IMG/VR virus record: IMGVR_UViG_3300042904_000032
Span: 1-50,947 of that record
Strand: one strand, 5' to 3'
Length of the DNA: 50,947 nt
Origin: a virus
Each line of letters starts with the position of its first letter. The stretch's first letter is position 1. Shown here piece after piece: positions 6,391 through 50,947 of the stretch. A model generated the notes under the pieces. It searched no databases. It was not told the origin of the DNA and saw only the letters and a list, made by a program, of their open reading frames with translations. The position numbers and the translations under genes are program-made.

Positions 6391-7104
6391 TTACACGAAA
6401 ATCTCTTCCATGTCAAGCTTGTTAGGGCCTATTTTTAATTCACACGTCATTGGAAGAGAGAAATCATACCCATAATGTTGCTTACACAAAGCGGGCACCT
6501 TCTCAACCGATGTCTTCATCATCTTAGCCACATCAAGCACATATTCCTCTGGAGAATCAGCCACAAGGCTGTCATGGATGGTCCCTACGAACAGCGCGGG
6601 AATACCAGACATCTTAAGAGATTGATAAAACTCTATACGGGCAAGCTTCACTAGATCTGCTCCGAAGCCCTGTACGGGATAGTTCTTGATGATGGTGAGG
6701 GGCCATCGATAGCCATTCTTTTCAAACGGAAAATATCGTCCTGAAGGAATGACAATTTGCCCTGTACGCATCACTGTCAACAATAAATCATCGTGCCATT
6801 TCTTTAGTCCTTTATATTTCTCATAATATTGATCAATGACTCCTTGCCAGAATTTCTCTGAAGTACTTACCCCCATGAAGTCAGGATCATGTGCAAAGCT
6901 ATAAGCAGATCCTCCATAAATAATTCTGAAGGTAAGCACCTTTGCAACAAGTCTACCGGCCTTCCCTTCACCAAGTTTAAAAGTGTCTCTGTTTACTTCA
7001 TGAAGATCAATCTTTTCTCGAATCTCTTTAGCAAATGTCTGATCCCCTGATAACTCAGCTGCCGTGACGATTTCCAGGGATTTGACGTCAACATTAATCA
7101 GCAT
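6391..7104 (-). CDS. DNA polymerase, family A, C-terminal half (palm/fingers)
   Basis: This 237-aa frame is the catalytic half of a Pol I/T7-type replicative polymerase. It begins just before motif A (VDVKSLEIVTAAE, catalytic D6) and contains the fingers O-helix motif B with exact R-x3-K-x3-F-x3-YG spacing (R51, K55, F59, Y63) and motif C (H177-D178-S179). The exonuclease and thumb regions are on a separate upstream frame, and an HNH gene lies between them. Both halves together (about 630 aa) match the usual length. The two polypeptides must assemble to give an active enzyme, or be joined by some RNA-level event; no intron is visible. ATG 7104 has no clear ribosome site and may rely on coupling. 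Confidence 0.92.
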   Translation of the reverse strand: MLINVDVKSLEIVTAAELSGDQTFAKEIREKIDLHEVNRDTFKLGEGKAGRLVAKVLTFRIIYGGSAYSFAHDPDFMGVSTSEKFWQGVIDQYYEKYKGLKKWHDDLLLTVMRTGQIVIPSGRYFPFEKNGYRWPLTIIKNYPVQGFGADLVKLARIEFYQSLKMSGIPALFVGTIHDSLVADSPEEYVLDVAKMMKTSVEKVPALCKQHYGYDFSLPMTCELKIGPNKLDMEEIFV

Positions 7105-7568
7105 TCTATTTGAGCTAAAACACCTTTGGCAAAGGAAATTAGTTGTTCTGGAGTGGCGTTCCGTTTCATAAAATTCGCTAACGCAGAAATTACTTGAATA
7201 TTTCCCTTAATATATCCCTTGGAATTATCTATACGATCTAGAGATGCATTAGTTGGTTGAAATCCTTGGCCCTGTGTAGTAGTTAGGTCTACGTTTAAAT
7301 ATACACATTTATCTGGAATAGTAATATCAGATAATTCTAGATTAAATTCTAAATTTTTATATTTAGCATTTTTTCTAGCTTGAGCAAACAACTTTCTTTC
7401 AAAGTTATTTTCAATCCAATTACAATTACTTTTAAACCGTTTATCTTTGCATTTTTTAGCAGACTTGCGACTTATTTCATTCTTACGTTCTCGATTGGAT
7501 TCGGCCCAAAATTTCCATTTTTCTTTGTTTTCTTGATAATACTTTTGTCTATATTCTTTACTATTCAT
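7098..7568 (-). CDS. HNH-type endonuclease inserted between polymerase halves
   Basis: A 156-aa basic protein. The N-terminal 60 residues are repeats of lysine, arginine, asparagine and tyrosine (KYYQENKEKWKFWAESNRERK), a DNA-binding style seen in phage homing nucleases. The C-terminal part holds the nuclease-like core ASLDRIDNSKGYIKGNIQVISALAN, typical of HNH variants. It overlaps the polymerase N-half by 8 nt and the C-half by 7 nt. The codon use is much richer in A and T than its neighbours, consistent with recent arrival. Its target is presumably the uninterrupted polymerase gene between the PNLQN motif and motif A. Confidence 0.85.
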   Translation of the reverse strand: MNSKEYRQKYYQENKEKWKFWAESNRERKNEISRKSAKKCKDKRFKSNCNWIENNFERKLFAQARKNAKYKNLEFNLELSDITIPDKCVYLNVDLTTTQGQGFQPTNASLDRIDNSKGYIKGNIQVISALANFMKRNATPEQLISFAKGVLAQIEC

Positions 7569-8745
7569 ATCTAGTTAGTAACAATTTATCTAACTCCTCA
7601 GGGCAATTTTGTAGGTTAGGACGGGATGATGAAAGGCGGCCCGTGCGGGCGACGTTTTGATTATATTGACCATGAATCAGATTGTCTTGCCATCGTAATG
7701 TAGTCATAAGTTTATGCATACTCTCCAACATTTCCACTACCTTAGAGACTTTAGCACGCTTATCAAGGAGGTCGAGTAAATCCTTATCCTCTTTCCTTCG
7801 GCTTTTAAGTTGCTTAAGAGTCGGCTCATTGGTTTCGTAAAAGAGAGTTCCTTTGTATGTAGGTGCCAAGCATTTCTTGACTGTCGTGCCTTCAAGCGGT
7901 TTAAAGCGGAGTGGGAACGAAATCTCTTTTGTATGCCATGAGCGTTTAACGTATGCCTGCCCTTTCTTTTCGCCGGTCTTGTACACCGCGGGTTCTTCTG
8001 TTGCATACGGATAACTACCATTTCCGCCGTAGATGAGAAGAGATAGATCGTCTCCAGAATTCCAATTGAAATAGGCTTTCGCCTCTTCAGGTATAAAAGT
8101 CCAGAGCTTCTGATCGATAACATCTAAATCATCCTTATAACATCTGAGAGCATAATCAGCACCTTCGTAGTCCCATTTAGCCCCGTTCCATTCTGCTTCC
8201 ATGAGAGTCTTCATGTCCTCCCCTTCTAGAAGCACCAGCGACCTTTGCTTCTCATTCAAAGCCTGTTGCTGCAAAGGGAGCACCTCATAAATGGCCTCAA
8301 CATCCCGGATGTTATATGGCTTAAGAATTTCTATTGGAATGTCTGGTGTATCAATCCCCAATTCCCAATATTCTTTTACCTTATCTTCCTTGGGATCTAG
8401 ACCATAACTTTTTAAGGTGTCATCGAGACTTGCATAGGAAAGGGTTTGCCCAGAAAGAATGAATTCTCCTAGCTGTACATCCCAAATGACACAATCAGGC
8501 GGTGGAGTCCAATTTAGAACACGACGAATCCATAGCAAATCAAACTTACAAGCAAAGTTGACAAAACGAGAGCAACGGCTGAGGGCTTGTCGAAGGACAT
8601 CAAGGAAGTCAATGTCTGTGTAATATTTCCAAATAGTTGGTTCATCATCAATCTTTAAAGCATAGGAAACTAGAAAATTCTGGGGATCAAATACATGACC
8701 CTTATTCTTGGTTGTTGTCTCTACATCAAGAATTACTTGTGCCAT
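7561..8745 (-). CDS. DNA polymerase, family A, N-terminal half (3'-5' exonuclease and thumb)
   Basis: The 394-aa product carries the DnaQ-like proofreading exonuclease: motif I LDVETTT, motif II FVNFACKFDLLWIRR, motif III YNIRDVEAIYEV. The thumb region follows, ending with TGRLSSSRPNLQNCPEELD, the conserved block before palm motif A. The frame then stops (LLLTRYE) and the palm continues in a separate gene at 6391-7104 after an HNH gene. The start ATG comes 3 nt after the helicase stop with no strong ribosome site, so it is probably translationally coupled to the helicase. Confidence 0.92.
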   Translation of the reverse strand: MAQVILDVETTTKNKGHVFDPQNFLVSYALKIDDEPTIWKYYTDIDFLDVLRQALSRCSRFVNFACKFDLLWIRRVLNWTPPPDCVIWDVQLGEFILSGQTLSYASLDDTLKSYGLDPKEDKVKEYWELGIDTPDIPIEILKPYNIRDVEAIYEVLPLQQQALNEKQRSLVLLEGEDMKTLMEAEWNGAKWDYEGADYALRCYKDDLDVIDQKLWTFIPEEAKAYFNWNSGDDLSLLIYGGNGSYPYATEEPAVYKTGEKKGQAYVKRSWHTKEISFPLRFKPLEGTTVKKCLAPTYKGTLFYETNEPTLKQLKSRRKEDKDLLDLLDKRAKVSKVVEMLESMHKLMTTLRWQDNLIHGQYNQNVARTGRLSSSRPNLQNCPEELDKLLLTRYE

Positions 8746-8748
8746 TCA

Positions 8749-9987
8749 TCATGCGTAGTCAATGATGTCTTCATATCTTGCCTGTTGTGTGTTAATCAGC
8801 ACTTCAAAATGCCCATGTTTAAGGGCTGGATCAGAGTCAGGATCACCAAACAACTTGTTCTTGCTTATAGCGAGATAACGCACTCGTTCAAGAGTTTGTT
8901 CATGGACCTTTCCAATTCCCAATACCCAATCTGCTTCGGCTTGGACAGCTGTTTTAGCATTGGCAACGTGGCCCATATTAAGGTAACGCACTCCTTCTGC
9001 TGTTCCGTCAGCTTGTGATACTCCAATGGAGGCATGACCTTCTTTAGCAAGTTCTCTAGCCCATTGGAAAATGCTTCCCAATCGTAGGTCTTCTCGGTCG
9101 TTTTGGAATCCTTTAATTTTAGGTAATTGGTCATATACCACAAGAGCAGGTTCCTCTGAGGAAACAAGGTCTTCAACATCGCGCTTGCCGATGTTAGCAG
9201 AATCATATAGCTGCCAATTATCACCCACACTATTAAGGAACTCCCGTTCATAGAACGCCTCATTCCCCATAAGCTGAGTCAAATCACATCCAAAGAAAGC
9301 CTGTAGTACCCGGAGATTTACCTTGTCTCCCTGTTCCTCATTACAGAACCAGATTACAGGTCTGTCTGTTTGTTGCAGGAAATTAGAAACTTCCGAGGCC
9401 AGGAAGGTAGTTTTCCCTGTTTCAGGTCTAGCGAATATGAATCCAAAGTCCCCAGCACGTAAGGATCCAAGGCTCTTGTTGAGGCAATTAAGTCTCCAAC
9501 GTAATCCTTGCGATTTATAGGTGTTGTGAAGAAGATCGCCCAGCTTGTTGGAAACTCGCCGTAATTGTAGGTGATTGGTGGTAGGTTGGTGTAGTTGCTC
9601 ATATAACTTTAAAAGGGTCTCTAGATTGCCTTCTCCCTTACTAAGCTTAAAGGCCTCCTCAGACAGCTTTAAAGCCTCTCTACGCTGCTTTAGCTGCACC
9701 AGGAGTGCTTCGGGCACCCCCTCGCTTAAACCCTCGGTACGTAGTCTCTCAAACAAGCCCTCATACAAGGCCCTGTCACAGGAGGGATATTTATTGAAGA
9801 AGAAAGCAGACAGATCGTTTAGAGAAACGTCTGTAGCAATGTTATTGTGAAGATCTTCTAGAGCTTCATAGAGATAATAGATTTCCTTAGATATGTCTTT
9901 AATGTCTTTAAGACTTACATATTGAAAATAACTATTAAACTTACTTTTCTCTAGAAGACATAAAATTAGAGTTAGTTCTGGATTCAT
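8749..9987 (-). CDS. DnaB-like replicative helicase
   Basis: The 412-aa protein has a DnaB/RecA-type C-terminal ATPase: Walker A ARPETGKTT (K192, T193), Walker B ALVVYDQL (D286), and a downstream GVSQADG segment typical of motif H3. The N-terminal 150 residues are helical and short for DnaB, with a lysine/leucine-rich linker. It should unwind the fork ahead of the split polymerase, using the separate primase encoded upstream. It follows a 150-nt gap that contains a promoter and hairpins, so it may begin its own transcription unit. Confidence 0.9.
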   Translation of the reverse strand: MNPELTLILCLLEKSKFNSYFQYVSLKDIKDISKEIYYLYEALEDLHNNIATDVSLNDLSAFFFNKYPSCDRALYEGLFERLRTEGLSEGVPEALLVQLKQRREALKLSEEAFKLSKGEGNLETLLKLYEQLHQPTTNHLQLRRVSNKLGDLLHNTYKSQGLRWRLNCLNKSLGSLRAGDFGFIFARPETGKTTFLASEVSNFLQQTDRPVIWFCNEEQGDKVNLRVLQAFFGCDLTQLMGNEAFYEREFLNSVGDNWQLYDSANIGKRDVEDLVSSEEPALVVYDQLPKIKGFQNDREDLRLGSIFQWARELAKEGHASIGVSQADGTAEGVRYLNMGHVANAKTAVQAEADWVLGIGKVHEQTLERVRYLAISKNKLFGDPDSDPALKHGHFEVLINTQQARYEDIIDYA

Positions 9988-10137: not shown

Positions 10138-10356
10138 TCACGTTTCCATAGGGTTATCACTTAGAGCCCCACAGCCAACTTTGTAGTTGGTGCCTGGAAG
10201 GGTGAGCACCCCACCTTGGTTATAACAGAAGCCAAATACAGCTCGCTCCCCGAATTCCCGGCCCTGAGCATGCCGATGCTCCCCATAGAAATACCCGCCA
10301 ATGATGGGGCTAACACCAATGAGAGCCATAACTACAATTTTAACATACTTGTTCAT
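10138..10356 (-). CDS. Small membrane or exported protein (72 aa)
   Basis: A 72-aa protein with a positively charged start (MNKYVK) and one hydrophobic stretch (residues 7-24, IVVMALIGVSPIIGGYFY), followed by a soluble part with two cysteines (FGFCYNQ, KVGCGAL). The layout fits a membrane-anchored or secreted small protein with a periplasmic domain. No family is recognised. Its start overlaps the end of the primase gene by 4 nt, so it is co-translated with it, yet it has no evident replication role. Confidence 0.7.
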   Translation of the reverse strand: MNKYVKIVVMALIGVSPIIGGYFYGEHRHAQGREFGERAVFGFCYNQGGVLTLPGTNYKVGCGALSDNPMET

Positions 10357-11093
10357 TTCAATACTTCCTTAATTTCATCTAACGACAAAGCCTTGGGGTC
10401 TTTTGTCGTGGTAATAATTTTCACAGGCCTGCCAGTGAGTAATTCCAATCTGGCCGCCTTTTTAAATGATCGACCTTCTTGATCCTTGTCTAACCAAAGA
10501 ACAATAGGGCGATCTGATTTATCCGAGAGATAATATAAATGGGCTGGATGGATTTCAGTGCCGAATAATGGTAGAGCCTCCGTTATTTGACCAACCTTAT
10601 TAGCACTTAACCAGTCTTCAACCAATATTGTTTGTGCTGCTTGATGGGTTTCCCCCACTGGAAAAGCACCTTTGTGAGAATCTCCTCGGGTGAACCATTT
10701 GCTTCCTTCTCCCCGGATGAGTCTTCCGATGGAAAAGGCCATACTTCCCACGGAGGGAATGCAGAAATAGAGTCGCCCTTCTTTTTCAGAATAGCCGCAG
10801 TTTTCTTTCCAGAAGCTATATGGGAGTCCAAATTGGAGGAGCCATTTCCAAGCCTCTGTAGGAACTTCTCTGGACCAGTCAGTAGGTAGGGTACCTGCTT
10901 GGACATTTAAGCGCTCCTGGGGCCGTTTAAGGGCCTTCTCAGGGCCTTCCCAAGGGGCCGCGACATGCAGTCCACAAGCAAAGCAATGTTTTGTACCATT
11001 TTGGAAGTGTTTAAGGTTGTCTCCGGAACTGTCTTGCCCACGATCCCTACACCTCGGACAGGGGGAACAATTCCTCATCATCGTCATCTTCAA
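10353..11093 (-). CDS. DNA primase (Toprim, zinc-binding)
   Basis: The 246-aa product begins with a zinc ribbon (CPRCRDRGQD and then HCFACG), as in T7 gp4A and DnaG. A Toprim domain follows: ILVEDWLSANKVG (catalytic glutamate) and VLWLDKDQEG (metal aspartates). It should make RNA primers for the helicase-polymerase machinery. The helicase is on a separate gene, unlike T7. The N-terminal start is uncertain: ATG 11093 lies within the upstream zinc-finger gene, and an internal ATG (MRNCSPCP) five codons later is equally likely. It overlaps that gene by 47 nt. Confidence 0.88.
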   Translation of the reverse strand: MKMTMMRNCSPCPRCRDRGQDSSGDNLKHFQNGTKHCFACGLHVAAPWEGPEKALKRPQERLNVQAGTLPTDWSREVPTEAWKWLLQFGLPYSFWKENCGYSEKEGRLYFCIPSVGSMAFSIGRLIRGEGSKWFTRGDSHKGAFPVGETHQAAQTILVEDWLSANKVGQITEALPLFGTEIHPAHLYYLSDKSDRPIVLWLDKDQEGRSFKKAARLELLTGRPVKIITTTKDPKALSLDEIKEVLK

Positions 11094-12423: not shown

Positions 12424-12634
12424 TTCCAAACGCCTCAATATCGTCGGTTGGATCATCAAAGAAATACAGCGACTCTGTGTCGACTTCAATTACTGGGGAG
12501 TCATCACCATCACACTGAAAGTAAGGGTAATTTTCCATTGCATCACGCCAAGCTTGCGCCTGTTCACGCGTTTTAAACCTTCGCGCGCGGCAAGTCCCAT
12601 CACCAAGATTATCCATTACTTCATACCATTTCAT
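12413..12634 (-). CDS. Small acidic protein downstream of ATP-grasp gene (73 aa)
   Basis: A 73-aa acidic protein: MKWYEVMDNLGDG, then a RARRFKTREQAQAWRDAM helix, and a very acidic tail (FFDDPTDDIEAFG). Its start overlaps the stop of the ATP-grasp gene (4 nt), so the two are co-translated. A small acidic protein coupled to a RimK-like ligase could be a substrate or carrier, but it could also be unrelated; nothing in the sequence decides. Confidence 0.7.
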   Translation of the reverse strand: MKWYEVMDNLGDGTCRARRFKTREQAQAWRDAMENYPYFQCDGDDSPVIEVDTESLYFFDDPTDDIEAFGNVS

Positions 12635-13335
12635 TGGAAATACTCCTTCAAAGCATTAACATAATTAACCAATGTAGTACCCATAAGACCGGGGCGACTA
12701 TTCACCTCAAGCACATAACACATATTACGTTTCTCGTTATAAATAATATCCACTGCCCCATAGTTGTAATCACAAGCAGCTACCGCTTTGGTCGCCAATT
12801 CCAACATCCCTTCAGGAGGCACCACATCATTCCGAACATATACATAACCATTAACACAATTACGAACACGGGTGTCCCTATCGCCCTCAAAACCACGTTT
12901 CTTTTTCTTCTGTTGTACATCAATTACTTTTCCGTGGAAGACATGGACCCGGTATTCAGCTTTCTTTGGGATGTATTCTGTATAGACAGATGCTCTAGGA
13001 TACTCTGCATCACCTGACTCAAATTCGATAATTCCACGGCCATTTGTGCTATTGATGAGTGCACGGGCGAAGAGTGTTTTTGCATCAAGTTGCTTAGCCT
13101 CTTCGACACTCGTTGCGTACGCAGGAGCGCTGATTTGATTTTCTCGGAATCGTTCATATTGTTCAATCTTGTCCAAAGGATGTTGTGTAACTATAAATGC
13201 CTTATGTTTCCATTGACGTTTCTGTGACCAGCGACGAGAAGAAATCCGAAAAGATTGCATCCCGTCTGATGATAGACCTTGTTGCAAGGCCTTCGCAAAC
13301 TTTGATCCCACTGGATCAACAACAATATATTTCAT
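12631..13335 (-). CDS. ATP-grasp ligase (RimK-like)
   Basis: A 234-aa ATP-grasp enzyme, which activates a carboxylate as acyl phosphate and joins it to an amine. Visible motifs are the EYRVHVFHGKVIDVQQ segment (residues 127-142) with a following lysine/arginine run, AVDIIYN (D195) and VLEVNSRPGL (E210, N212), the metal/ATP ligands of the family. The short N-terminal domain suggests a minimal RimK-type fold. It sits in a seven-gene cluster with two amidoligases and two glutamine amidotransferase-like genes, so the product is likely a peptide-like amide. Its start overlaps the stop of the class-II GATase by one base (TAATG). Confidence 0.9.
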   Translation of the reverse strand: MKYIVVDPVGSKFAKALQQGLSSDGMQSFRISSRRWSQKRQWKHKAFIVTQHPLDKIEQYERFRENQISAPAYATSVEEAKQLDAKTLFARALINSTNGRGIIEFESGDAEYPRASVYTEYIPKKAEYRVHVFHGKVIDVQQKKKKRGFEGDRDTRVRNCVNGYVYVRNDVVPPEGMLELATKAVAACDYNYGAVDIIYNEKRNMCYVLEVNSRPGLMGTTLVNYVNALKEYFQ

Positions 13336-14570
13336 TACGATGCCAAACTTTTACATTCCACTACATCAGTGACTTCCAGCATAGCATGATATTGCTTGGT
13401 GCCAGACAGATAACGGGCCATAAGAATATCCGGCCGTGCTTTAAAGAAATTCGTTGAATAATTCACCATTTCTGTTTCACTTTTGCAATCAACCTTCCAT
13501 ACACATACCAATCCCTGATCCCTATCTCCCTCATCCTCTCCAGTCATATTAGACCAACACAAGATACCCCACACATAATATTCTGTGCAATTAGGGGAAT
13601 CGTACATTGGTTGATAATCCTGTCCTTCAATGAGAATGTGACCTGTAACCAGCTTGTTATATCGATGACGAAGGTGGGGAATTACTGATTCGTCATATAC
13701 CTCCACAAACTTCTCAGGGATGACTCGAAAAAGATCTAGAGGACTCTTTCGCCCGAAATGATGCCTATTGCTAGCTTGTGGAGCAGGTAAAGTGCGTTGA
13801 TGATAATTGCCCCCTAGATAGGATCCCCATTCCGCCCCATCCCAAGCAGCACCTGAATATTTATATTCAATGTCTTGATGATTTTCTTTGTATTTATCTC
13901 CATCCATATTAAAGGAAAGAAGTTGACCCTCTTTCACATCATACGGAGGATTTTTAAATTCCAACCCAGCACGACTACCAGCTAGTGCCAACATATCTTT
14001 CTCAGAGCCTAGCAACACACCTCCGTCTTTAAGGTAACCAATAGCGAGCGGCCGATCTTCATTATGGATGGCATAAATAGTCGATTCTTTTACATTGTAC
14101 CAGACAAATGTAAATGCAGCATTAAGTTTCTTAAGGGCCTCAGAAATAGAGGTAGATTCAGCAATTACATGGGCGCATGCTTCCGTGTCTACTTCCGTAT
14201 CCTTATGCTTTTTATGATCCCCTTTATAGGTACCATTTTGCATAAGAATAATATTGTCATTTACGACAAACGGATGAGCATTCTCATCTGTCTTTGCTCC
14301 GCGGGTGGCAGCCCGATTGTGAGCAAAAGCCCAGCGGCCTTTATGAATCAATTCTGAACGGGAATCTTTCCATTCCTTTGTGCTGAGAAAAGCAAATCCA
14401 GGCATTGCTGCTTTATGCACTTGAATATTTTTCTTATTATCTGCATACATAATCCCCGTTGCATCAAAGCCACGGAGAGTATCCATATAAATAAGTTCTT
14501 CTAGTGCCTGGGCCTCTTTGCTACTAAAACCATTACTATAAGAACTAATAATTCCCACAATTCCACACAT
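13335..14570 (-). CDS. Class-II glutamine amidotransferase (Ntn) protein
   Basis: A 411-aa protein that begins MCGIVGII, with Cys2 as the N-terminal nucleophile exposed after Met removal. Other GATase-II signatures are RGFDATGIMYA, HNRAATRGA, LMQNGTYKG (oxyanion Asn/Gly) and DTEACAHVI. It should hydrolyse glutamine to ammonia, or act as an amidase on a gamma-glutamyl amide. The C-terminal 200 residues are not an asparagine synthase or PRPP domain and I do not recognise them. The phage therefore lacks a synthase domain in this chain; the ammonia or amide acceptor is presumably handled by the neighbouring ligases. Confidence 0.88.
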   Translation of the reverse strand: MCGIVGIISSYSNGFSSKEAQALEELIYMDTLRGFDATGIMYADNKKNIQVHKAAMPGFAFLSTKEWKDSRSELIHKGRWAFAHNRAATRGAKTDENAHPFVVNDNIILMQNGTYKGDHKKHKDTEVDTEACAHVIAESTSISEALKKLNAAFTFVWYNVKESTIYAIHNEDRPLAIGYLKDGGVLLGSEKDMLALAGSRAGLEFKNPPYDVKEGQLLSFNMDGDKYKENHQDIEYKYSGAAWDGAEWGSYLGGNYHQRTLPAPQASNRHHFGRKSPLDLFRVIPEKFVEVYDESVIPHLRHRYNKLVTGHILIEGQDYQPMYDSPNCTEYYVWGILCWSNMTGEDEGDRDQGLVCVWKVDCKSETEMVNYSTNFFKARPDILMARYLSGTKQYHAMLEVTDVVECKSLAS

Positions 14571-14579
14571 ATTTATTCC

Positions 14580-15641
14580 TTATCGACGCCGAGCTGGGCG
14601 AAGCATATTCGGCGGCGGATTATTAACAGCCGGGGGCATTTGAATGTGATGTTGAGGCCATTGGATCGGCGGCCGGTTAGCTAGAGTAGCTGGGCGAGCA
14701 CCCTCCCTCTGAATCTCCGCAAGCGCTTGGTCCACATTAAATTGGGCAGGTTCGGTAAGAGCGTCAAAGAAACCATCATCAATCACTCCGTACGATTCTG
14801 GAGTAACTTTAACATTATCATTGGTAATGGAGTATTTCATATTAATCACTCCATCCTCCATATTAGTACGATAGTTATTCAAATATAGCACCACATGAGC
14901 ATATTCACCAAACACTTGATGTGTAAAGCTATCGTATGCACTGGTTGTATTCAGGTCCATGATGATCGACCTAGTTTCTTCCATTTTATTATTGCGTGCA
15001 TAGGCAGTAAGGCAACCAATGAGATTACACCATTGAACAATCTTGCTTAGATCATTTGTGCCAGCCATATGCCGAAATTCAATGGTCCCCAATTCATAAA
15101 TAGGCAAGAGGTTAAGCGCAGTATATTTCTGCCATTTCTTACCCTTTTGAATTAGATTTCCTTCCAGCACACTATAGGTCAGATTCGTTGCATACCAAGG
15201 AACACAGAAAATATTCTTATCCCGTTCCTCTCCCACCCATTCAAAAAAACAACGTTCAAATACTTGATAAAGCATCAAGATTGTTTTTACTTGATCAGTG
15301 GTCATGTCTTGTACATTCACATGTACATGCACCGAGCAACGTTCAGAATAATTACTCTCTGTAAATTTATTCTTCTTAAAGAATTGATCCAACACGTAGA
15401 CCAATTCCCGCATCCTCATGGGATGAGTGACATATTCTGCGCCATGATTCCGCAAGCTGCCATCTTCATGGTATTCCATCCCTGGAACGCAATGGCTGCG
15501 ATAATCATCGTAGTTACATCCTTCAATCTCCAATTCTACGCCATAAATCAGCGTAGGATCAGTGCCCATTTCAGGCTCAATAAGCAATTTTGTGACTTTA
15601 TAAGGTTCTACAGGAACCAAACCCAAATCATTACACAACAT
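14580..15641 (-). CDS. Amidoligase (PF12224-type COOH-NH2 ligase)
   Basis: A 353-aa glutamine synthetase/glutamate-cysteine ligase-like amidoligase. Motifs: YGVELEIEGCN (metal Glu residues), EYHEDGSLRN, SVHVHVNV, and TIEFRHM. Members are predicted to form amide bonds between a carboxylate and an amine using ATP. The last 40 residues are a proline/arginine-rich low-complexity tail, perhaps for partner binding. I chose ATG 15641, with GAGGTG 4 nt upstream and a start inside the previous gene; a longer in-frame version to 15725 gives an unlikely N-terminus. It lies 9 nt upstream of the GATase-II gene, inside the peptide-ligase cluster. Confidence 0.88.
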   Translation of the reverse strand: MLCNDLGLVPVEPYKVTKLLIEPEMGTDPTLIYGVELEIEGCNYDDYRSHCVPGMEYHEDGSLRNHGAEYVTHPMRMRELVYVLDQFFKKNKFTESNYSERCSVHVHVNVQDMTTDQVKTILMLYQVFERCFFEWVGEERDKNIFCVPWYATNLTYSVLEGNLIQKGKKWQKYTALNLLPIYELGTIEFRHMAGTNDLSKIVQWCNLIGCLTAYARNNKMEETRSIIMDLNTTSAYDSFTHQVFGEYAHVVLYLNNYRTNMEDGVINMKYSITNDNVKVTPESYGVIDDGFFDALTEPAQFNVDQALAEIQREGARPATLANRPPIQWPQHHIQMPPAVNNPPPNMLRPARRR

Positions 15642-16206
15642 ATTGCACCTCAAACGCCGTACCTGATCGCGCAACAGCGTCACGTAGCTCTTGATTAAAC
15701 AGTTTATTAGTGACAGTAATCGCATTTTTATTACGGGTACCTACCACACGGTCATACATATATACATCTTTCTTATTCATTGCAAAATGCTTTGAAAGCA
15801 CCACAATATTTTGATCTTTAGCCGTTAGATTTGAGCAAATATCTCTGACATTCTCAAAGGTCACGTCTTGCGCACGCATGCGATCAGTGAGTTTGACAAT
15901 TTGAGTATTTGCATTACTGATACCACGAGCAAATTGCCGCTGAGGAATACGGGAAACATAGTATGCACCACCATCAGATGATGTATACCAGCCCCGTTCC
16001 AATTGGGTAAATTCCCAAGACACCCCTTTATCAATAGCGGCGGTATAACTATAACCCGCTTCAGTATCAAATCTCACATACTCATCCCGCACTTGAGCAA
16101 TCTTAACTAGTTGTTTTTCCCCAACCTCAGGGATATACCAAGCGAAACAGTGGAGATAGCGTTGTTGAAAGTCTCGCCGGTTATCAGTAGTAAATGTGTC
16201 TTTCAT
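15631..16206 (-). CDS. Unknown protein within the ligase cluster (191 aa)
   Basis: A 191-aa protein of mixed strands and helices (FAWYIPEVGEKQLVKIAQV, then RFDTEAGYSYTAAI, and a helical basic middle). No family recognised. It overlaps the type-2 ligase gene by 4 nt and the amidoligase gene by 11 nt, so it is locked between the two ligases and is most likely part of the same pathway (inference): a carrier, a scaffold or a divergent enzyme. No cysteine pair or transmembrane segment is evident. Confidence 0.72.
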   Translation of the reverse strand: MKDTFTTDNRRDFQQRYLHCFAWYIPEVGEKQLVKIAQVRDEYVRFDTEAGYSYTAAIDKGVSWEFTQLERGWYTSSDGGAYYVSRIPQRQFARGISNANTQIVKLTDRMRAQDVTFENVRDICSNLTAKDQNIVVLSKHFAMNKKDVYMYDRVVGTRNKNAITVTNKLFNQELRDAVARSGTAFEVQYVV

Positions 16207-16988
16207 TCCAGAATGGGTACATTATAAGTATTTACCAACATATAAGCCACATCCTTATTATTCTTGTTAATCGCATTGAACAGTGGCTCGCGCAACTTAT
16301 CAATATCAAAATCAGTGTCAAGCATTTGGAGAGCAAGGGTGGTGTTATCCCACACCCATGATCGTCTTTGTTCGTTAAACACCCAGAAATTACTCAGCAC
16401 CCGATATTCCAGGCCATAAGGCTTATATCGCACAGCGCCCATCTTCCCATAGAGTTGTTTACGAAGGTCACCGTCATCCATAAGAGTGGACGGGGCTCCA
16501 AGGAATAGATCCAATAGTTTACCCAAACGATTAGCTTGATCAACATCCTTAATGGGATAGCCAATGTGCACATGTCCCCCGCAAGACCGCAAAGACTTGT
16601 CCTTCGCATTGGGCCTCGGGTTAGGCTTATTGGTCCACACATTGAAATCCGGATCGCAGCCAAACATCTTAGCTGCTGGGCTGTCTAGTTCTTTTGCGTC
16701 AAAGCTACTCGCGGACAATCCAGACAACCGCAATCCATACATTTCAAACACTTGATCAGCGAGGAATGCCACAGTGTTACCAATACTTGCGACAAATTGT
16801 TCCCGATGATCTGCGGGAGGAATATTAAATTCAATGGCTACATTGTCCTCTTGCACCGCATAACCATCACCCAAAGGCAACGGCAGGGGATGCTCTTTAC
16901 TACCACCAATAAGGCCCACCGCGCTCTTAAGAGCACCGGCAGCATCCATCAGAAAAATTTCAGGGTCACAACCAAGAGTAAATTTCAC
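16203..16988 (-). CDS. COOH-NH2 ligase, type 2 (PF14395-like)
   Basis: A 261-aa protein of the phage amidoligase type-2 family, a second glutamine-synthetase-fold ligase. Motifs: LGCDPEIFL at the N-terminus, EDNVAIEFNIPPADH, SCGGHVHIGY and LEYRVLSNFWV. It is distinct from the PF12224 protein encoded downstream, so the cluster has two non-identical ligases of this fold plus an ATP-grasp ligase: capacity for at least three ATP-driven amide bonds. It lies 2 nt from the 220-aa unknown gene and overlaps the 191-aa gene by 4 nt. Confidence 0.88.
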   Translation of the reverse strand: MKFTLGCDPEIFLMDAAGALKSAVGLIGGSKEHPLPLPLGDGYAVQEDNVAIEFNIPPADHREQFVASIGNTVAFLADQVFEMYGLRLSGLSASSFDAKELDSPAAKMFGCDPDFNVWTNKPNPRPNAKDKSLRSCGGHVHIGYPIKDVDQANRLGKLLDLFLGAPSTLMDDGDLRKQLYGKMGAVRYKPYGLEYRVLSNFWVFNEQRRSWVWDNTTLALQMLDTDFDIDKLREPLFNAINKNNKDVAYMLVNTYNVPILE

Positions 16989-16990
16989 AA

Positions 16991-17653
16991 TTAATTCCTT
17001 TTAAACAATGTGAAAGTCAGGAGAGGATGGTCTGGGTCATACACATAATTATTATTAATAAATGATTGTGTATATACTAGTTCAGAATTAACATCAAACT
17101 CATTAATGACACTAATAGCATCTTCTAATTGTTCATTAGTATAGATATAACAAACATATCCAGTTGTATTTTTATAAAGTGTTTCATAACGAGTTACTAA
17201 TTCTTTATATCGTCGAATATAGTCTGGTACATCGTACCATTTTGAGGCCCCACTTTCACGGTCTTGCCACATTTTCAGGCCGGCACGGGCTTTGATGAGT
17301 CCCTCAATATAAACTGAGTGATAGGGACCATCTGACTGTTTCATAAAGCGGCGGCTTGAAAGGGGGGCATCCACAGGATCGCCCCAATCATCCTTTTCGA
17401 GCCATTCCTCAGCTACAGTTACTAGCCGTTTAATATGGAAAAACAATTTCCCGTGCTCTACCACATCAATTTTATATTCTTCCTCATCCAAAACTACATG
17501 CTTAACCTTGTCAACGAACAGAGTAAGGCCGAATAAAGACGTTTTAAAATCATCAATATCGACCGCTTGATATGCCCCACAACAGGCTGAAAGATACCCA
17601 TATTCATTATAATAACCACCGAGTCCATCGGCAGCGTCTTGAAAATATCTCAC
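16991..17653 (-). CDS. Unknown protein within the ligase cluster (220 aa)
   Basis: A 220-aa protein with a cysteine pair near the N-terminus (LSACCGAY), a central basic and aromatic helix region (DYIRRYKELVTRYETLY) and many aromatic residues at the C-terminal end. No family recognised. It overlaps the class-I GATase-like gene by 4 nt, and the second ligase follows within 2 nt. Its conserved position in the cluster, if seen in other phages, would support a role in the pathway. Confidence 0.72.
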   Translation of the reverse strand: MRYFQDAADGLGGYYNEYGYLSACCGAYQAVDIDDFKTSLFGLTLFVDKVKHVVLDEEEYKIDVVEHGKLFFHIKRLVTVAEEWLEKDDWGDPVDAPLSSRRFMKQSDGPYHSVYIEGLIKARAGLKMWQDRESGASKWYDVPDYIRRYKELVTRYETLYKNTTGYVCYIYTNEQLEDAISVINEFDVNSELVYTQSFINNNYVYDPDHPLLTFTLFKRN

Positions 17654-18282
17654 AGATTAAACCTTTCCTTAAACACTTTCCGAACCCATTGATTACTGGG
17701 TTCATCAGAGTCCAGATATTCTGGATGCCATTGCACACCAAATCCATTCAGATCGGGATAAAGCACCGCCTCAGGCTCACACGGGACCTGCACCGGAATG
17801 TCAACATCAAGATAATGTCGACTCAAGGGGCGCGTGGATTGGGCAATGATTTCGTGATTTGTATCCCATGGTGCTTGCATTTGATGGTGCAAAGAATTTA
17901 CTTCAAATTGATATCCATCACTATCCTCTACCAAATGATCCGCGCCGGCATGATTAGTGACGTCCTGAATCAAATAGCCCCCTGCCGCAGCACATAGCAT
18001 TTGTGCTCCACGACAAATGCCGAAGATGATCACGCCCTTTTCCTTAGCGCCATGCAAACAAGCCCATTCAATGGCGTCTCGCCTGGACGGCCAGGAGCTT
18101 GCCCCTGACGCGGATGATCGACCCTTGTTATACAGGCTGGGGCTAATGTCAGAGCCCCCATGAATAATCAAAATCCCGGGCTCATCAATCGCATTAGGGG
18201 AATCAATTACACAACATTCCCAATCAGGAAAGAAGGCATTCAGGGGATGGAAATGGTTATAGAGTACTGAATATAGCTTCAT
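17650..18282 (-). CDS. Class-I GATase-like gamma-glutamyl hydrolase (peptidase C26 type)
   Basis: A 210-aa protein of the class-I glutamine amidotransferase fold: nucleophile elbow IFGICRGAQML with Cys90, and catalytic dyad VQWHPEY with His186 and Glu188. HGGSDISPSLY early on resembles PuuD/gamma-glutamyl hydrolases (C26), which cleave gamma-glutamyl amide bonds. It is the first gene of the ligase cluster in transcription order. It could remove a glutamyl protecting group or recycle the product of the neighbouring ligases (inference). A 17-nt gap separates it from the upstream gene. Confidence 0.88.
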   Translation of the reverse strand: MKLYSVLYNHFHPLNAFFPDWECCVIDSPNAIDEPGILIIHGGSDISPSLYNKGRSSASGASSWPSRRDAIEWACLHGAKEKGVIIFGICRGAQMLCAAAGGYLIQDVTNHAGADHLVEDSDGYQFEVNSLHHQMQAPWDTNHEIIAQSTRPLSRHYLDVDIPVQVPCEPEAVLYPDLNGFGVQWHPEYLDSDEPSNQWVRKVFKERFNL

Positions 18283-18738: not shown

Positions 18739-19023
18739 TTAGGCGGGGAGCACACCCTTTTCACTCACACTGAAACTAACCGGATCAGTGGATTTAGCTA
18801 CTTGTCCTCCAGTAATTTCTCCGGAGACAAACTTCACATTAGGCCATCGCTTTGCGAAATGCACCAAGTCACCATCACGATGCTTTGCATTAGCATAAAA
18901 CACCACAGCGGGCGGGTTATTACCGCGCAGATCATGCTCACGGGCAGTATAACCCTGGTAATTGATTGCATATGCAGTGGCTCGCTCGTCTTCGTAATAG
19001 GGAGCCAAGAAAAATCTATTCAC
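18739..19023 (-). CDS. Unknown protein (94 aa)
   Basis: A 94-aa protein with AVVFYANAKHRDGDLVHFAKRW, then VKFVSGEI, suggesting an alpha/beta fold, perhaps a truncated nucleotide-binding or sugar-binding domain. I cannot assign it. It overlaps the preceding gene by 8 nt. No membrane segment. Confidence 0.65.
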   Translation of the reverse strand: MNRFFLAPYYEDERATAYAINYQGYTAREHDLRGNNPPAVVFYANAKHRDGDLVHFAKRWPNVKFVSGEITGGQVAKSTDPVSFSVSEKGVLPA

Positions 19024-49552: not shown

Positions 49553-49578
49553 AAAAGAGGGCCATTGGCCCTCTTTTT
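49553..49578. terminator. Bidirectional intrinsic terminator at the convergence point
   Basis: AAAAGAGGGCC-ATT-GGCCCTCTTTTT is nearly palindromic: a 7-bp GC stem (57-63 and 67-73 of this block) with A-tract upstream and T-tract downstream, so it can stop transcripts from both sides. It separates endolysin from the leftward Ntn hydrolase gene. A second inverted repeat (ATTTAGC/GCTAAAT) lies just before it. Confidence 0.88.
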
Positions 49579-50029
49579 ATTTGACAGTGTATTCCTTAGT
49601 ACCATGCCCTGTGAAAGGATCATGTTTACTAGCTAATACCACCGCCTCTTTAGGGGTTTTACCAGCAGCCATAGCACCAAGAGCAATGTGACATCCTGAT
49701 CCAATAGCATAATCTGGTTGATCCACTACAAGCCAATCTTTTAAATTTCTACTGGTAAGTAGCTTATCCTTTGTAAGCATTAAGAATTCTGTGCCCTTAA
49801 TGTTAGGAAGTTTACCTCCAGTAGACAACCATCCCCAAGCAGAGGAAATTCCGTCTGCGTCTCCACAAGCACCAATAACTGCTTCCTCTACACCAAAGAG
49901 TTCCTTAGCTACTTCTTTGTTAATTTCATAACATTTGGTGGCACCTTTAAATTTAAGCCCATTGCTATGTGAGAATTGTCTGTCACATACAATGGTGTGC
50001 GTCCTTAAGCTAGCTGCAATAGTCGTCAC
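49577..50029 (-). CDS. Proteasome beta-like Ntn hydrolase (HslV-type)
   Basis: A 150-aa protein whose start MTTIAASLR puts threonine at the mature N-terminus, as in proteasome beta and HslV. Other signatures: TIVCDRQFS (Asp), GATKCYEI (Lys at the catalytic position), EEAVIGACGDADG and AIGSGCHIALGAMAAGK. It should be a threonine-type peptidase or a relative. No ATPase partner (HslU-like) is encoded, so the unfoldase is host-derived or not needed. Similar Ntn proteins occur in other phages, with unknown role. It starts at GTG 50029 overlapping the small upstream gene by 4 nt. Confidence 0.78.
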   Translation of the reverse strand: MTTIAASLRTHTIVCDRQFSHSNGLKFKGATKCYEINKEVAKELFGVEEAVIGACGDADGISSAWGWLSTGGKLPNIKGTEFLMLTKDKLLTSRNLKDWLVVDQPDYAIGSGCHIALGAMAAGKTPKEAVVLASKHDPFTGHGTKEYTVK

Positions 50030-50136
50030 TTAATGGCCTTTTTATCTTGATATGCCTCATAAAAGGGTTTCATATCTTGCCTTAACTTTTGTTCTAGAGC
50101 CTTAGCTAATTCTGGATACCATTCTTTAGATCCCAC
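50026..50136 (-). CDS. Small protein after the reductase (36 aa)
   Basis: GTG 50136, with an AAGGGGG ribosome-site-like run 5 nt before it, begins 36 codons (MGSKEWYPELAKALEQKLRQ, then a helical basic end) and overlaps the reductase stop by 11 nt. Its own stop overlaps the Ntn hydrolase start. A longer frame up to 50430 in the same phase overlaps the reductase and looks spurious. Confidence 0.55.
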   Translation of the reverse strand: MGSKEWYPELAKALEQKLRQDMKPFYEAYQDKKAIK

Positions 50137-50947
50137 AGCTTCCCCCTTTTCCGCTAATTTCACATACGTCGTTTTCTTCGTAGACGACGCCTTTGTGTTT
50201 GAGGGCTTCGTCGTAGGAACATTCTGTGATGGGTTGACCTCCTCTAGAACCATCTGGATAGGCGGTAAAGCCCCGAAGCCTTGGAGCATACTTTGCAAGC
50301 GTTTCTGCAAACTTTCCAACAACTGATTCATTGTTATCTTTCGAGCCCCAAGCAGGTAAGTTGATTGTACTGGAAATTGACATGTCAACGTAATCTTGTA
50401 CGTCTGCTTGGAATTTAATTCGTTGCTCATAATTATGACTTAGCTTGTAAGCGGTGTCGATGTTCTCTGGAGAAAGCCCGTATTGGCGAATGAGTTGATC
50501 TGCTGTGCTGTCAACAACATATTCATACTTCCATTTAGTGCCGTCAGTAAGGTAGCGGCGCTTGTAGGCCACTGCAAAGAGAGGTTCAATACCGGTAGTA
50601 GTGCCAGCGAGGATGCCAATGGTGCCTGTTGGTGCAATTGCGCGATACGCAACTGGTTTAGATATGTAAAAACGCTCGCAATGATCATTTGCCGATTTTT
50701 CTGATTCTGATTCATATACTTTTAACCATTCATGTAATTCTGGAGTTACTTCGTATCCGTAGCCCCGTTTGAGGAGCCATTCGTGCATGCCCATAAGTCC
50801 GAGGCCAAGGCGCCGATTCTTTTCCCTAACTTTATAGACCTTTTCGTATGGTAAATCAGCTCGAAGGGTGCCGCAAACAAGGAACTTCGACGCCAAGGAG
50901 ACAACGGATTGGAACTCTTCCAAAGTTTCAATATTGCCCATGTTGAT
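50126..50947 (-). CDS. Ribonucleotide reductase, class II-like, C-terminal part (runs off right edge)
   Basis: The C-terminal part of the reductase that begins at the left edge. Visible are NLGSINMGNIETLEEF continuing from the left fragment, RRLGLGLMGMHEWL, IAPTGTIGILAGTTTGIEPLFAVAYKRRY (the conserved phosphate-binding and substrate loop), SISSTINLPAW and the redox tail CEISGKGGSCGI (C-x6-C at the very end, used to receive reducing equivalents from thioredoxin or glutaredoxin). Length of the joined protein is 561 aa, short relative to bacterial NrdJ but usual for phages. Confidence 0.93.
   Translation of the reverse strand: MNMGNIETLEEFQSVVSLASKFLVCGTLRADLPYEKVYKVREKNRRLGLGLMGMHEWLLKRGYGYEVTPELHEWLKVYESESEKSANDHCERFYISKPVAYRAIAPTGTIGILAGTTTGIEPLFAVAYKRRYLTDGTKWKYEYVVDSTADQLIRQYGLSPENIDTAYKLSHNYEQRIKFQADVQDYVDMSISSTINLPAWGSKDNNESVVGKFAETLAKYAPRLRGFTAYPDGSRGGQPITECSYDEALKHKGVVYEENDVCEISGKGGSCGI
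50821..50947. repeat. Direct terminal repeat (circular assembly overlap), right copy
   Basis: Identical to positions 1-127. See the left copy: the repeat lies in the reductase gene and marks the overlap of a circular contig. Confidence 0.93.

Follow-up and report, generated by a model that had tools for sequence, protein, structure and literature searches.

Why should a phage carry, side by side, genes whose products would make and break amide bonds, and do such genes form a single functional unit? The question is raised by one viral record of IMG/VR (IMGVR_UViG_3300042904_000032; 50,947 bases, analysed in full and hereafter called the window), in which seven co-directional minus-strand open reading frames (ORFs) code for three ligases, a class-II glutamine amidotransferase (GATase), a C26-type protein and two further proteins of 220 and 191 residues. 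Judging from the sequence, this cluster is almost certainly a complete and apparently intact member of a known phage amide-ligase ("peptidoglycan modification") cassette. Cassette-type amidoligase gene sets were reportedly published for phages by Iyer in 2009, and Hardies is said to have described a seven-gene "peptidoglycan modification cassette" in phiRIO-1 in 2013. An earlier note on this DNA had described the cluster, which is not a novelty: the seven-gene cassette already stands in the literature under that name, with a superinfection block as its hypothesised role (PMC5498523, PMC6256558, PMC11945000, PMC10580990), and in these four papers the modification of peptidoglycan is a hypothesis only.

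The Seven Genes and Their Products

All seven ORFs were found in one leftward run with overlaps or short gaps, as the earlier note had described. The first gene (17650–18282, minus strand, as are all those that follow; 210 aa) codes for a protein with the C26-type class-I GATase fold, gamma-glutamyl hydrolase-like and related to PuuD and Lin1909 (Pfam Peptidase_C26, 9.7e-20). It is followed by the gene of the 220-aa protein (16991–17653, GTG start), which occupies a variable slot; by a phiEco32-like COOH-NH2 ligase type 2 (16203–16988, 261 aa, GTG start), an ATP-dependent amide ligase resembling glutamine synthetase (GS) and gamma-glutamylcysteine synthetase (GCS), whose score lies above the family cut-off (COOH-NH2_lig, PF14395, 3e-10); by the 191-aa protein, hereafter X191 (15631–16206); by a second COOH-NH2 ligase, of the Amidoligase_2 family (PF12224, 9.2e-8; 14580–15725, 381 aa as open frame); by the class-II (N-terminal nucleophile, Ntn) GATase with a GlmS/PurF-like N-terminal glutaminase (13335–14570, 411 aa; GATase_6, 8.7e-13); and by an ATP-grasp ligase (12631–13335, 234 aa), the Pfam match of which to RimK is barely over the cut-off (2e-4). 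From the C26 gene to the ATP-grasp gene, the junctions are a 4 bp overlap, a 2 bp gap, a 4 bp overlap, an overlap (X191/amidoligase), a 9 bp gap and a 1 bp overlap. The first ATG of the amidoligase, at 15725, gives a 95 bp overlap with the X191 gene; with the ATG at 15641 as start, a plausible alternative, the protein would have 353 aa and the overlap 11 bp, and no clear Shine-Dalgarno sequence was found at either of the two.

The five enzyme identities first proposed for these genes agree with both Pfam and PHROGs, the matches to the latter being much stronger (type-2 ligase, phrog_3815, 1.8e-74; amidoligase, phrog_7469, 7.3e-41; ATP-grasp, phrog_2599 "S6 glutaminyl transferase", 2.7e-46). 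Against the RimK alpha-L-glutamate ligase model TIGR00768 the ATP-grasp protein scored 24.0 bits, under the cut-off of 143.4, and by this comparison it is RimK-like and not RimK proper. The C26 protein has solved relatives in the PDB (Lin1909, 3.9e-12; PuuD, 2e-6), and its 31 bits do not reach the cut-off (266) of the PuuD equivalog; its assignment as a gamma-glutamyl-CDP-amidate hydrolase was rejected (36 vs 250 bits). The N-terminus of the GATase matched the GlmS glutaminase (1.2e-3), and beyond the glutaminase domain the protein continues for about 170 aa towards its C-terminus. Sequence searches of the PDB with the type-2 ligase and the ATP-grasp protein retrieved no useful relatives.

Active sites were read from profile alignments embedding 88–115 relatives per enzyme. 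The loss of active-site residues had been named beforehand as a reason to reject the proposed cluster, and the conserved residues are kept. The C26 protein of the window possesses the Cys-His-Glu triad of class-I GATases expected of a Peptidase C26/PuuD-like protein (C90, H186 and E188, invariant in 88 relatives). The type-2 ligase retains D8, E10, D48, E53, H139, H141, R176, R187, E194 and R196, conserved in at least 99% of 115 relatives; the amidoligase retains E64, E66, H133, H135, E216 and R218, conserved across 110 aligned relatives; the GATase C2, R86, H99, N112, G113 and D128; and the ATP-grasp protein K56, E127, R129, D196, E210 and N212. We take these residues to be catalytic from what is generally known about ligases of the GS type, ATP-grasp enzymes and Ntn amidotransferases. 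A small number of conserved columns that do not look catalytic differ in the window (e.g., H111 to Q in the GATase and G37 to S in the ATP-grasp protein). By sequence, the cluster encodes three ATP-dependent carboxylate-amine ligases (GS-like type 2, PF12224 and ATP-grasp) with their active-site residues in place.

Distribution and Synteny of the Cassette

Probing 50,697 phage records by tblastn retrieved the type-2 ligase in 312 of them, the amidoligase in 326, the GATase in 316 and the ATP-grasp protein in 311. The same block is present in annotated phages of Pseudomonas, Escherichia, Salmonella, Proteus, Alcaligenes, Citrobacter, Klebsiella, Rhizobium, Aeromonas, Pantoea and a cyanobacterium, as well as in crAss-like phages. 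A profile search of IMG/VR with the type-2 ligase gave at least 567 confirmed places, whereas a search of prokaryote genomes covering 84,980 species yielded just 15 loci, each of them on a metagenome-assembled contig; in light of this near absence, the type-2 ligase is almost exclusive to phages.

Synteny was then analysed in 116 sequences, obtained from the IMG/VR and prokaryote-genome profile searches, a third small profile search and the annotated phages, with one hidden Markov model per gene; 61 of these loci had enough flank to be considered well covered. The four core enzymes (type-2 ligase, amidoligase, GATase and ATP-grasp) occur in 61/61 well-covered loci, a figure that holds by construction for the ligase, through which the loci were selected, and not for the other genes. 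C26 is present in 51 of them, X191 in 46 and gamma-glutamyl cyclotransferase (GGCT) in 16. Over all the loci, 669/670 assigned genes lie on the strand of the ligase. The co-occurrence of the core enzymes in every well-covered locus implies that the cluster is not a chance assembly and, together with the shared strand, that its genes form one pathway.

The window matches the known cassette in having the PF12224 amidoligase, the class-II GATase and the ATP-grasp ligase in one co-directional run beside DNA replication genes, together with a gamma-glutamyl-cleaving partner, which here is the C26 protein with its triad, GGCT being absent from the window. GGCT is not a defining part of the cassette: in PA11, a carrier according to PMC5498523, the scanned stretch contains C26 but not GGCT.

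As far as named systems are concerned, the phiRIO-1/PSA-HP1 cassette (PMC5498523) shares with the window the gamma-glutamyl-type amidoligase, the second amidoligase, the ATP-grasp protein, the glutamine amidotransferase and the placement among DNA replication genes; RIO-1-like cassettes carry GGCT, which the window lacks, the window having C26, and the sequences are divergent. The closest annotated phages by type-2 ligase are Alcaligenes phage vB_Af_QDWS535 (OK172329; 41.6% identity) and Caudoviricetes sp. MW202697 (43.4%), both with the same order as the window, C26-(slot)-ligase-X191-amidoligase-GATaseII-ATP-grasp; their slot proteins differ from that of the window, and QDWS535 additionally has GGCT upstream of C26. 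The link to phiEco32-like phages that the earlier note had mentioned was also recovered: the phiEco32-like, Grimontviridae, LUZ24-like and PA11 cassettes (ECBP2, Salmonella 7-11, UFV-P2 and PA11) share the block ligase-X191-amidoligase-GATaseII-ATP-grasp, although in PA11 GATaseII precedes the ligase, and ECBP2, 7-11 and UFV-P2 have no recognisable C26 and carry C-[FYW]-G proteins of about 280–400 aa upstream of the ligase. A second arrangement, architecture B (crAss-like cr108_1, Cellulophaga phi14:2 and cyanophage Lbo-JY46), possesses the same four core enzymes but lacks X191, has a longer amidoligase (470–660 aa) and, unlike the window, often follows the order GGCT-GRASP-(C26)-ligase-GATaseII-amidoligase. 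It was found at loci L014, L053, L058, L059, L061, L065, L076, L079, L083, L094, L095, L113, L115 and L195; among these, L014 belongs to a crAss-like phage of the human gut and L195 to one of Cellulophaga. Moreover, the record of phage ZRK32 (OP650935.1, L194) holds the same type-2 ligase at 40% identity, and the auxiliary metabolic genes of this phage, which is reported to promote nitrogen use by the host, are probably this cassette.

With respect to the published cassettes, what is new here is X191 as a conserved component, the family of C-x-G proteins in the slot, the alternation of C26 and GGCT and the near exclusivity to phages.

X191, a Conserved Component of the Cassette

Both proteins without assigned function had been put forward as components of the system. 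For X191 the support is strong: it is a conserved cassette component and not an orphan. Probing phages by tblastn with X191 gave no match because pairwise similarity is too low, and profiles built from synteny were needed. The protein aligns with those in the same position in other phages, sharing an RxPxRQWxRG loop and, downstream of it, Y...(I/V)G. Its profile matches 90/116 loci, with a median distance from the ligase of −1 bp over these 90 (i.e., the two often overlap), and in 46/46 well-covered loci that have X191 its gene is the next one downstream of that of the type-2 ligase. When the X191 of Salmonella phage 7-11 served as an independent seed, 37 phage records were matched, and for four genera the counts equal those of the ligase (Aeromonas 11, Proteus 8, Salmonella 7, Cronobacter 6).

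The AlphaFold2 model of X191, computed from an alignment whose rows came from the window and the IMG/VR loci only, is confident (predicted local distance difference test, pLDDT, 95.4; predicted template modelling score, pTM, 0.87) and beta-rich, with SH3/Tudor-like small barrels. A sequence search of the PDB retrieved no relatives, and the model found no confident match there, just short SH3/Tudor/KOW-like barrels. Against a viral structure library it gave 11 matches under 1e-3, all to proteins that bear no functional name; their sources include RIO-1 (R4JGU0, E 3e-5), CW02 and Vp_R1; RIO-1 and CW02 are listed as cassette phages (PMC5498523), and Vp_R1 is also matched by the 7-11 seed. On this model, X191 is probably not catalytic but a subunit that binds or serves as a scaffold. 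The hypothesis that X191 has been fused into the long amidoligase of architecture B was rejected (hhalign probability 0.1%). A 545-aa X191 homologue with N- and C-terminal extensions was observed at L078:10710–12347, where it overlaps the ligase frame and its two matched pieces lie far apart.

The Variable Slot between C26 and the Ligase

The case of the 220-aa protein is weaker, its motif and position being what ties it to the cassette. It matched no family in Pfam or PHROGs and no phage by tblastn, and its AlphaFold2 model was poor (pLDDT 55), the fold search giving nothing of use. The protein is made of an N-terminal module with a CCGA motif and a C-terminal module ending in N.NY....L..F.FK; in some relatives the two are separate ORFs, and it looks like a fusion of them. 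Relatives in the slot between C26 and the ligase were recognised at L022 (E about 1e-6 in a small local set), at L025 and, by alignment, at L116; L026 was also aligned. The homologues of both proteins therefore do co-occur with the ligases.

The motif C-[CFYW]-[GA] is found in 71/341 ORFs that lie up to 3 kb upstream of the ligase vs 82/983 elsewhere (Fisher p 4e-9, an optimistic value, the motif having been chosen after looking and many of the ORFs being related). Shuffling gave an expectation of 14.6 against the 71 observed, and control motifs were not enriched. Several phages without C26 carry, in the same place, CFG/CYG/CFA-motif proteins of about 280–400 aa. By these data, the slot of the 220-aa protein is one that changes fast and in which C-[CFYW]-[GA] proteins are frequent. 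Among unassigned ORFs, CCG was observed in 61/1951 on the ligase strand vs 9/1393 on the opposite one, and further small proteins with a CCG motif occur in early regions (L019:4873, L020:14829, L046:8133, L060:4715, L085:8910, L096:8914, L107:5660 and others); the CCG-motif small proteins seem to be a family that evolves fast, and those tested matched nothing in the databases.

Upstream of C26 and in the same run, an ORF at 18739–19023 (minus strand), without any family match, codes for a small protein with a divergent body and a conserved C-terminal tail of the type [ST]x[KRN]Gx[LIM]P (SEKGVLPA in the window). Most close relatives (L020, L022, L027, L030, L031, L116, L121 and L126) likewise have an ORF with a similar tail where C26 starts or close by, and the protein of the window is a possible accessory, not a demonstrated part of the cassette.

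What the Cassette Might Make

The idea that the cluster would assemble and trim amide bonds fits the three ligases, the GATase and the C26 protein with their kept active sites, and we consider it likely that the product is a gamma-glutamyl or other amide. In the architecture bearing X191, 38 loci have C26 only, six GGCT only, two neither and none both. C26 and GGCT have unrelated folds, both cleave gamma-glutamyl amides and they were not found together in these loci, so that one shared gamma-glutamyl step is suggested, and their alternation points to gamma-glutamyl chemistry. The presence of PuuD, a gamma-glutamyl-GABA (gamma-aminobutyrate) hydrolase, among the nearest solved relatives of the C26 protein is in agreement with this.

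A tentative scheme, which we favour without giving it even odds, is that gamma-glutamyl amides are put together and trimmed in the cytoplasm, and that this most plausibly takes place on peptidoglycan precursors. Neither signal peptides nor membrane segments were detected in the cassette enzymes, and hydrophobic segments are absent from all seven proteins (largest 19-residue Kyte-Doolittle mean 1.52), which places the reactions in the cytoplasm. The ligases would act early in infection, activating carboxylates to acyl-phosphates and coupling these to amines; the GATase would supply ammonia or act on glutamine or a gamma-glutamyl substrate; C26 (GGCT in other cassettes) would remove the gamma-glutamyl group; and X191 would probably bind or position the substrate or the ligases. 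In phage HP1 the cassette genes are expressed immediately (PMC7082346). The likeliest target would be the gamma-glutamyl/diaminopimelate (DAP) peptide of cytoplasmic peptidoglycan precursors, so that the wall of the infected cell would be changed, for instance against superinfecting phages. All the hosts named among the phage matches listed for the type-2 ligase are diderms, which is compatible with a gamma-D-Glu/DAP target; still, peptidoglycan as the target is a possibility that we hold with some reserve.

Several points weigh against this scheme. The alternation of C26 and GGCT represents just two to four independent evolutionary changes on the ligase tree; 10 loci of architecture B have both, as does phage QDWS535, where GGCT lies outside the strict block and which, having failed the flank filter, is absent from the counts above. 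Among the matches listed, the restriction to diderms may merely reflect phage lineage. In line with the earlier note, the papers found on the cassette show no product or substrate by experiment. A variant idea, that the peptide changes create targets for the endolysin (PMC11945000), found no support, the endolysin of the window being a GH19-type glycan cutter. Finally, gamma-glutamyl chemistry fits soluble metabolites or proteins too.

Indeed, the cassette might make a soluble gamma-glutamyl peptide or small glutathione-like metabolite that signals, protects from redox stress or counters host defence, a GCS-like ligase being followed by the glutathione-synthetase-like ATP-grasp and by trimming through gamma-glutamyl hydrolase or cyclotransferase. 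In fold, the enzymes parallel gamma-Glu-Cys ligase, glutathione synthetase and GGCT/C26, annotations such as gamma-glutamylcysteine ligase-like and glutathione synthase are given to some relatives, and all the cassette enzymes look cytoplasmic; yet three ligases and a GATase are more than a di- or tripeptide requires, many hosts already make glutathione and the literature reports no such metabolite, and we regard this explanation as rather unlikely.

It is less probable that the cassette modifies proteins, with the RimK-like ATP-grasp and the amidoligases attaching amino acids to a protein of the host or of the phage and with X191 and the slot proteins as adaptors or substrates. The PHROG label of the ATP-grasp protein, the prediction that R2K ATP-grasp phage ligases modify host proteins (PMC4431377), the resemblance of X191 to SH3/Tudor binding barrels and the common motifs or tails of several small proteins of the same run speak in its favour, but the ATP-grasp protein falls far under the RimK family cut-off, no conserved target protein was found and trimming by C26/GGCT would be poorly explained. 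A related proposal, phage-exclusive tagging of peptides or proteins instead of wall modification, in which the C-x-G slot proteins and the SEKGVLPA protein would be carriers or substrates for the three ligases and X191 the delivering adaptor, seems improbable to us.

An auxiliary nitrogen-metabolism set, aiding ammonia or glutamine use by host or phage as claimed for ZRK32, is very improbable: a phage with these gene types, whose record holds the same type-2 ligase, promoted growth with added NH4+/NO3−, but the genes themselves were not tested in that paper (PMC10945688). Besides, ammonia assimilation needs neither three dedicated ligases nor X191, and the type-2 ligase is nearly confined to phages. 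DNA or nucleotide hypermodification is the least probable of all, for although some phages modify bases with amino acids and the cassette adjoins primase, helicase and polymerase genes, no base-modifying starter enzyme was seen among the cassette genes and early expression explains their place before the replication genes.

Genomic Context

The replication genes come next on the same strand, namely a primase-like gene (10353–11093), a DnaB-like helicase (8749–9987) and polymerase pieces. The DNA polymerase consists of two ORFs matching phrog_17 at 673–986 and 1008–1235; in this region (ORFs 6391–7104, 7098–7568 and 7561–8745, minus strand) an HNH/endonuclease VII-like ORF sits between the two, and the gene is probably split by a homing endonuclease. 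Near the right end of the window, an HslV-family peptidase (49577–50029, minus strand; phrog_1040, 2.4e-26) adjoins a piece of ribonucleotide reductase (50126–50941). Rfam and tRNA searches found nothing, the defence-system search gave no match, the window had no match in a DNA-level search of phages, and promoter-like sites were rarer than in shuffled sequence.

Implications

The cassette spans 5–8 kb in phages of hosts ranging from Pseudomonas and E. coli to Bacteroidota and cyanobacteria, and since 2009 its function has been a computational guess only. The recurrent parts (the four enzymes and, in the main architecture, X191), together with the alternating C26 and GGCT, narrow the question to gamma-glutamyl/amide products, and parts so defined are obvious candidates for deletion in phages of the laboratory, for instance relatives of LUZ24 or phiEco32.

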